From positions 2,604,001 through 2,668,000 of the forward strand of contig NZ_CP126446.1 of NCBI RefSeq assembly GCF_030166655.1: DNA of 64,000 nucleotides, read 5' to 3'. Below the pieces are notes generated by a model. That model saw only the letters and a program-made list of their open reading frames with translations, did not search any database and was not told the DNA's origin. This stretch comes from Pontibacillus chungwhensis (GTDB lineage: Bacteria > Bacillota > Bacilli > Bacillales > BH030062). The translations under genes and the position numbers were made by a program. Below, piece by piece: positions 34,034 through 35,167 of this stretch. Each line of letters begins with the position of its first letter. Positions within the stretch are counted from its first letter, which is position 1.

Positions 34034-34111
34034 AGTAGCACGTCCTTAGAGGGGGCTTCGATTATAGATTAGTTATTAAACCGCTCATATGGCTATACAC
34101 GGACATGAAAA

Positions 34112-34139
34112 AGCTCTTTATCCATTTGAATAAAGAGCT
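34112..34139 (-). terminator. Intrinsic terminator of HD-GYP/peptide unit
   Basis: AGCTCTTTAT and ATAAAGAGCT with an 8-base loop, then TTTTTCATG on the minus strand. Confidence 0.9.
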
Positions 34140-34146
34140 CGTTCGA

Positions 34147-34239
34147 TTAATTAAAGAATGGAATCGGAACACTCTGTGGTTCGATTACCAATCCAGCTGC
34201 TAAAGCAGTCATCGCTAAGAAATATACCATTTTTTTCAT
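34147..34239 (-). CDS. 30-residue exported peptide, candidate Phr-like signal
   Basis: The frame encodes MKKMVYFLAMTALAAGLVIE followed by PQSVPIPFFN: a lysine start, a hydrophobic core, a short polar tail. It begins 4 nt after the stop of the HD-GYP gene. AAGGGGTG, which itself spans the end of that gene, is 7 nt upstream, and a terminator follows. This is the size and shape of Phr/PapR-type signalling peptides of Bacillus, but no Rap or PlcR-type TPR receptor is visible here. The mature form is unknown. A small signal-peptide-like remnant remains the alternative. Confidence 0.65.
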   Translation of the reverse strand: MKKMVYFLAMTALAAGLVIEPQSVPIPFFN

Positions 34240-34243
34240 CTTT

Positions 34244-35167
34244 TTACACCCCTTGTTTCATTTTACTCCATTCTGGAATTAAATCAATAAATATTTTTAC
34301 AACTTCTGGATGAAACATTGTCCCTGCATTTTCATTTAATTCTTCAATAGCATTTTCCACCGACATCGCTTTACGGTATGGACGATCGGTTGTCATAGCA
34401 TCAAAGGCATCTACTACGCTAACTATATACGCCAGTGGAGAAATCTCATCTCTTTGTAAACCATTGGGGTATCCTTTGCCATCAAAACGTTCGTGATGCT
34501 GTTCCACGATTGTACCAGAAGCCCTCATATAGGGGCTATCTGTCGCTTCCAATAATTCTTTTCCATATGTACAGTGCCGTTTCATTTCTTCCCATTCTTC
34601 TTCCGATAAGGGCCCTTCTTTTAAGAGGATGGACTTAGGAATCATAATTTTACCAACATCATGCAAATAAGAGGCATAATTAAGGGTACACATATCGCCC
34701 GGGGAAAGCTCCATCCTCTCTCCAATAAGCATTGACATTTGCATTATCCGTTTACAATGCTCCGCCGTATACCCATCTTTAAGCGCTACTTCGATCGCTA
34801 ATTCTTGATTTTTCCTTACGATTTCAGAGAAAAACTGAAAAACAGGTTGAGAAGATATATAAATAAATTCTGTCTCTTCTAAAGCTAGAAATACAAGACC
34901 TTGTTTTATAGGAGAAGCAGACACCACGTCACCAGTCGATAGCACTTTTGTCTCCTCATCTACCGTTACCTTCAATGACCCACTAGTGATGAAAATACTC
35001 TCAGAGGCTGTCCAACCTTCTTGGGGCTGCATAGACCATCTTGAACCTTCTTGTAAAGTATGATGAATTACTTCTGTTCCATCACCTGTAGAAAGCAACT
35101 TAACAGTAAGCCCTGCATAGCGGACTGCTTCAATAGGTCTATCTAAGGATGTAAGGTATTCGTTCAA
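34244..35167 (-). CDS. HD-GYP domain protein with N-terminal cupin-like domain
   Basis: The 307-residue protein has an N-terminal beta-rich, cupin-like domain (about 30-110) and an HD-GYP phosphodiesterase domain from about 135: HD at 169-170 (YLHDVGK), HHERFDGKGYPNGL at 224-237 and DAFDAMTTDRPYR. The GYP residues are intact, so cyclic di-GMP or related hydrolysis is likely. It has no membrane or receiver domain. TTG is the start, behind AAGGGA. It lies 4 nt upstream of a 30-residue peptide gene, with which it shares a terminator. Confidence 0.88.
   Translation of the reverse strand: MNEYLTSLDRPIEAVRYAGLTVKLLSTGDGTEVIHHTLQEGSRWSMQPQEGWTASESIFITSGSLKVTVDEETKVLSTGDVVSASPIKQGLVFLALEETEFIYISSQPVFQFFSEIVRKNQELAIEVALKDGYTAEHCKRIMQMSMLIGERMELSPGDMCTLNYASYLHDVGKIMIPKSILLKEGPLSEEEWEEMKRHCTYGKELLEATDSPYMRASGTIVEQHHERFDGKGYPNGLQRDEISPLAYIVSVVDAFDAMTTDRPYRKAMSVENAIEELNENAGTMFHPEVVKIFIDLIPEWSKMKQGV

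Follow-up and report, generated by a model that had tools for sequence, protein, structure and literature searches.

The window analysed here, a stretch of 64,000 nucleotides of Pontibacillus chungwhensis DNA, carries a gene for a protein with a cupin and an HD-GYP domain and, immediately behind it, a very small gene whose product appears to be an exported pre-peptide. The components of the locus are as follows.

34244..35167, minus strand: cupin and HD-GYP gene, 307 aa, TTG start, stop codon TAA at 34246-34244
34844..35134, minus strand: cupin sensor domain, residues about 12-108 (from Foldseek; HxH metal motif absent)
34301..34789, minus strand: HD-GYP phosphodiesterase domain, residues 127-289 (from Pfam HD_5 and PDB relatives)
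34247..34254, minus strand: ribosome-binding site of the peptide gene, AAGGGGTG, inside the 3' end of the HD-GYP gene
34147..34239, minus strand: gene of the putative exported pre-peptide MKKMVYFLAMTALAAGLVIEPQSVPIPFFN, 30 aa, with orthologues in the same place and under purifying selection
34150..34170, minus strand: presumed mature signal VPIPFFN, the last seven codons (from the tails of relatives and tail repeats elsewhere)
34111..34140, minus strand: terminator-like hairpin of 13 pairs with a short T-rich tail, 3' of the peptide stop

The ATG of the peptide gene is at 34239, separated from the HD-GYP stop by four bases (AAAG), and its stop is at 34147. The ribosome site (34254-34247) overlaps the final HD-GYP codons K-Q-G-V-stop. 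A sequence-only reading of this DNA had described a 30-residue frame 4 nt past the HD-GYP stop, with its ribosome site inside the end of the larger gene and a terminator after the pair, and the window sequence agrees with that description throughout. The same spacing of 4 nt before a conserved peptide, an identical ribosome-site sequence and a similar palindrome 3' of the peptide are found in L033 (P. chungwhensis) and L034 (P. salipaludis).

The cupin-HD-GYP protein

The Pfam match of the 307-aa protein to HD_5 is strong (4.8e-34), and the one to Cupin_2 is weak (5e-5), with a score of 23.3 that is below the gathering score of the family. The assignment to the cupins was nevertheless settled by fold comparison. 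In an AlphaFold2 model made with 29 aligned relatives (mean pLDDT 89.5), Foldseek matched the N-terminal part to KdgF and RmlC-like cupins (TMt about 0.8, of the target) and the HD-GYP part to 4mcw, 4r8z and the c-di-GMP-bound 9rbz; the PDB relatives of the latter domain also include 5z7c. What had been taken from the letters as a cupin-like sensor domain can now be described more precisely, from Pfam, the model and Foldseek, as a true cupin fold.

The HD-GYP domain of the window protein has H137, H169-D170, H198, H224-H225-E226 and GxGYP. The catalytic residues are kept in 60 of 60 sequences that are paired with a small gene and in 28 of 28 control sequences (with one gap, at P234), and the HD and HHExxDGxGYP metal and substrate motifs are conserved throughout the alignment of relatives. 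Judging from these residues the active site is apparently intact, and c-di-GMP phosphodiesterase function is predicted. Since the genome encodes 9 GGDEF proteins and six HD-GYP-type matches, c-di-GMP signalling is probably present in this Pontibacillus.

The cupin metal ligands HxH...E...H are absent from alignment A1 (compared by eye, not by structure superposition), where the place of motif 1 reads GWxALE, so that the domain looks like a metal-free ligand sensor. A set of residues (H36, W44, G51-W52, P86, F101, Y103, S106) is conserved in the proteins that have a partner and seldom occurs in the control sequences; these positions are candidate peptide contacts and the cupin a candidate peptide-binding domain. 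The secondary structure of the model has no evident transmembrane segment, and the protein has therefore been taken as cytosolic.

Pairing of the two genes across the Bacilli

HD-GYP relatives were drawn from named genomes, from 399 genomes of the order and 400 of the class, and from a further 250 genomes of the order that holds Paenibacillus, and the DNA past the stop codon of each was read for a partner. The close set consists of 68 distinct loci (at least 219 bits against the window protein, duplicates removed). A small exported protein adjoins the HD-GYP gene in 60 of them, in many genera of Bacilli, which answers positively the question, raised with the sequence-only reading, of whether the small frame is conserved in relatives with the same HD-GYP gene. 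The partner mostly shares the strand of the HD-GYP gene and lies 4-30 nt downstream of it or has a 4-nt overlap with it; in a few loci it is roughly 50-240 nt downstream and in five Paenibacillus-type loci it is convergent. The eight close loci with no visible partner are L053, L127, L128, L139, L145 and L161-L163; each of the last three belongs to a genome that already has another, partnered copy. L127 and L128 are borderline-close and are followed by a putative CheW-like gene, a neighbour that suggests a different input or output link.

The specificity of the association was assessed with a fixed rule that asks for a ribosome site, a signal-like N-terminus, a length of 25-130 aa and a position on the same strand within about 60 nt, and that is blind to the C-terminus of the small frame. 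It was passed by 51 of 74 close loci (duplicates included), as against only 1 of 30 loci of the distant cupin-HD-GYP subfamily, which is without a partner in this sense, and 2.9% of shuffled downstream DNA. The partner label is strongly clustered when 97 HD-GYPs are placed on a tree, with 6 changes versus a shuffled mean of about 30. Comparison of the loci thus demonstrates both the pairing and its specificity. In four loci of the distant set that have no peptide (L056, L058, L153, L155), a Nudix-like (MutT-like) gene was noticed by eye shortly downstream.

A search in the opposite direction, with a profile of 26 long partners (alignment A2) against 399 genomes, gave 14 full-length matches, and all 14 lie directly beside an independently found HD-GYP gene. 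Two other matches were a decayed orphan and one at chance level, the latter (in G113, E 1e-3, inside a 310-aa frame) being rejected. The orphan (L205, G060:C5:43376-43534) is a long precursor that ends ILAVDPPNPAF and has no HD-GYP relative within 3 kb, a case of precursor decay where the receptor seems to be missing.

Pairs were also found elsewhere. On the 898-kb megaplasmid of Pontibacillus sp. ALD_SL1 (NZ_CP062975; L214:73-1146), a 57%-identical HD-GYP is followed by MMKKLIVSLLTVLMLTLGFSANAALADGEETAPSNDVETQNVPVTLFN, a precursor of 48 aa annotated as hypothetical protein WP_207531051; it has a different leader and pro-region and the tail VPVTLFN, and was found after the hypothesis had been formed. 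In Peptoclostridium acidaminophilum and a Halanaerobiales MAG the HD-GYP protein is accompanied by another kind of carrier, with the endings VEIDPMTVH and VAIDPLHVYSW. From Clostridia just two pairs emerged. The small protein belongs to no family in Pfam, NCBIfam or PHROGs and has no match in phages.

A conserved tail on a variable precursor

The tails of the 60 partners, in an alignment with a few anchors set by hand, follow the motif P-P-x-[PVA]-[ML]-[FY]-(N), 6-7 residues at the extreme C-terminus. The window version is VPIPFFN and its relatives have VPIPLFN, VPVPLF and VPVTLFN; aligned from the proline, the range extends over PPVPLYN, PPLPMY, PPHPMF, PPVVMY, PPIVMD, PPAPWVN and PPHPMVN. 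Position 1 is P in 53/60 and position 2 in 45/60, position 4 is mostly P, V or A, position 5 mostly M or L, position 6 mostly Y or F, and position 7, when present, usually N. From the letters the last 10 residues had been set apart; the conserved unit is the last 6-7. The motif is a poor description of the L141-L149 group (PPYPASYPTL, DPWPVS). In L114, L118, L043 and L045 a few further residues, mostly basic, come after the terminal N of the heptapeptide (RGR, RK, KKK, RPKT; for example PPKPYFN-RGR and PPIALIN-KKK) and are possibly trimmed by a carboxypeptidase.

The strongest evidence for regarding the tail as a unit comes from its tandem repetition. L117 (G160; L117:2392-2508) encodes MKKLLSSALLTPPAPWVNRHQPPAPWVNKTQPPAPWVN, in which PPAPWVN appears three times with the spacers RHQ and KTQ, and L112 (G313) ends SVPPVVMYGANSIPPVVMY, with PPVVMY twice. 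The copies differ at 1 to 3 codons and every difference is synonymous. The HD-GYP relatives nearest to L117 on the tree have full-length precursors, one of them ending PPHPMVN. The triple-heptapeptide precursor itself has only about 10 leader residues, fewer than a usual signal peptide needs, and no convincing signal peptide is seen in it. Conservation and repetition of the C-terminal unit are both evident from the comparison. This unit is very likely functional and linked to the HD-GYP protein.

The rest of the precursor is more variable. Short partners (28-57 aa) have just a leader, a short linker and the tail, while others reach 70-116 aa, many of them 90-116 aa. The long ones (about 90-111 aa) share a domain ending ...DHYYIWLTVNGxxVLGIDP, with the D-P invariant, and then a short tail; in most of them an AxA-like cleavage region precedes this soluble domain. 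The exported domain (L041:5895-6218, A2) has about 70 residues, with helices and a beta hairpin. In the AlphaFold2 model of a long precursor the core is well folded and the tail (101-107) is at pLDDT 63; Foldseek finds no PDB relative of the 100-aa form (best E 1.5). Signal peptides were called with a simple rule of charge and hydrophobic stretch, with which nearly all partners comply and L117 does not. Leader and middle differ freely among partners and the tails survive in the short precursors. The long or short state needs 5-6 changes on the HD-GYP tree, and comparison therefore shows that the middle domain has been lost or replaced several times.

Selection on the small frame, another check suggested with the sequence-only reading, was found to be purifying (pooled NG86 ratio ~0.2). 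Nei-Gojobori dN/dS over ten close pairs was about 0.21 for leader and middle, 0.17 for the last eight codons (rough, with so few codons) and 0.10 for the HD-GYP gene. Low figures such as these, even if rough, disfavour a neutral reading frame. We have also compared distances: those of the tail correlate with those of the cupin when corrected for the HD domain (partial r 0.45) and hardly with those of the HD domain when corrected for the cupin (0.04). The leader, for which no receptor contact is expected, behaves alike (partial r 0.41 against the cupin), so that the covariation is not decisive; it was rejected as proof of a link between tail and cupin and is only suggestive as a sign of contact.

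A proposed peptide signal and its relation to known systems

The reading that we favour, with fair confidence, is a two-gene cassette in which an exported, clipped and re-imported peptide gates the breakdown of c-di-GMP. The small gene would encode a precursor for Sec export, with the signal in its last 6-7 residues (VPIPFFN in the window) and with the leader and any middle domain as a carrier, removed by cleavage outside the cell. Once free, the peptide would re-enter through an oligopeptide permease (the genome encodes 7 Opp/Dpp-type binding proteins) and bind the metal-free cupin of the neighbouring cytosolic HD-GYP protein. Binding would switch the phosphodiesterase, and the level of c-di-GMP would follow the concentration of the peptide, that is, cell density or confinement. 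Cleavage, import, cupin binding, the sign of the effect and the output are steps that we infer. A diffusible peptide signal is likely, and direct binding to the cupin that gates hydrolysis is a step to which we give an even chance. Of the two interpretations offered from the letters, a peptide-coupled cyclic-nucleotide switch and a small membrane modulator, the first is thus favoured, since the tail is conserved and repeated in tandem while the rest is exchanged or lost and the pairing is specific to one subfamily; in this reading the peptide would bind the cupin and change c-di-GMP hydrolysis.

The alternative that survives best, although we consider it unlikely, is an exported surface or matrix factor that is merely co-expressed with the HD-GYP gene and whose C-terminus binds an extracellular partner with no return to the cytosol. 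The folded and conserved exported domain of about 70 residues in many members would suit such a role, and co-expression alone could explain adjacency. This sits badly with the repeated loss of that same domain while the tail stayed, with the tandem tails, with the convergent Paenibacillus placement, which keeps the pair without an operon, and with the finding of all 14 full-length profile matches beside a cupin-HD-GYP gene.

Less probable still is that the nascent or membrane-held small protein modulates the HD-GYP protein from inside, before export or without it. The Pontibacillus genes lie very close together and could be translationally coupled, the short members are only leader and tail, and L117 has hardly any leader. 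On the other hand, it is the tail and not the hydrophobic stretch that is conserved, the hydrophobic parts varying freely; most long homologues have an AxA-like, cleavable-looking leader region and a soluble domain, and partners 200 nt away or convergent are ill suited to co-translational coupling. The membrane modulator of the sequence-only reading is for these reasons disfavoured.

A bacteriocin or RiPP-like product, with the HD-GYP neighbour as its regulator or modifying enzyme, seems very improbable. A leader followed by a C-terminal core, with cores in tandem, does resemble RiPP precursors, and the cupin and HD folds include oxygenases; but the conserved active site is that of cyclic-dinucleotide phosphodiesterases, the cupin has no HxH metal motif, no dedicated transporter or immunity gene is evident adjoining the pair in the window, and the small gene is under purifying selection. 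A chance reading frame, for which only the length of 30 codons speaks, has been rejected as hardly credible given the position, ribosome site and tail conserved in relatives, the purifying selection and the ALD_SL1 tail VPVTLFN.

Among the major means by which bacteria choose between group behaviours are peptide pheromones and c-di-GMP. We know of no cytosolic c-di-GMP enzyme that is the receptor of its own neighbouring pheromone, and in the open-access PMC literature we have found no description of an HD-GYP protein with a peptide pheromone or with a cupin in such a sense. As far as the literature searched reaches, the evidence points to an undescribed system of cell-to-cell signalling. If the proposed cassette is true, it would join pheromone and c-di-GMP in two genes, yield dozens of predicted pairs of receptor and peptide, each with its specific 6-7-mer, and mean that TPR-based searches miss a class of receptors, a TPR detector being blind to such pairs by design. 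Because the carrier domain has been lost and replaced in nature, the family would also allow ideas on the evolution of pheromone precursors to be tested.

The separate parts of the pair have well-known counterparts. Small cupins (KdgF, RmlC-like proteins, the Cupin_2 domain of an XRE regulator, 6b8w) have the same barrel fold; here, in contrast, the HxH metal motif is not seen, there is a group-specific aromatic and histidine set (H36, W44, Y103), and the domain is fused to HD-GYP. The known HD-GYP phosphodiesterases (PmGH 4mcw, PA4781 4r8z, DvhD 9rbz) share the catalytic domain and residues, but their input is a receiver, PAS or similar domain instead of a cupin with a gene-adjacent exported peptide.

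As a system, the pair is closest to RRNPP(A) quorum sensing (Rap-Phr, NprR-NprX, PlcR-PapR, Rgg-SHP, PrgX, AimR-AimP), with which it shares the layout of two adjacent genes, one for a presumed receptor in the cytosol, of about 300 aa, and one for a small precursor, here putatively of Sec type. The RRNPP signature is a small propeptide exported by Sec and an adjacent receptor of 250-500 aa with TPRs; validated propeptides have 21-50 aa, the message usually lies in the C-terminal 4-10 residues, and intragenic propeptide duplications occur (PMC10075063). Four of these five features are present or plausibly so: the propeptide is small, as measured against 10-100 aa (30 in the window, 28-57 in short forms, 70-116 in others), a putative export signal is called by the charge and hydrophobicity rule in nearly all partners, the presumed receptor has 292-319 aa among close relatives, and the genes are adjacent in 60 of 68 distinct close loci and in all 14 full-length profile matches. 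The Phr/PapR-type shape noted at the outset is supported to this extent, as the two-gene layout of Phr, PapR, NprX and AimP without a TPR receptor. TPR repeats are not found, Pfam and Foldseek giving only cupin and HD-GYP, and the pair is for this reason not a member of RRNPP. Unlike in RRNPP, the presumed receptor is a cupin-HD-GYP enzyme with neither TPRs nor HTH, the output would be hydrolysis of a second messenger, and the precursors are often of 90-116 aa with a folded domain, a length beyond that of the validated propeptides which counts against the pheromone reading. Whether this is a quorum-sensing class outside RRNPP, in which a C-terminal hexa- or heptapeptide is taken back up, binds the cupin of a c-di-GMP phosphodiesterase and sets c-di-GMP directly, could in our estimate fall either way. 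So could its further terms, with no transcription factor or phosphorelay and a spread on unrelated carriers over Bacilli, a Clostridium relative and a Halanaerobiales genome. The pheromone-like precursor tied to a cupin-HD-GYP enzyme is real and conserved and has a fair chance of being a separate class, and by analogy the pair probably works like an RRNPP system.
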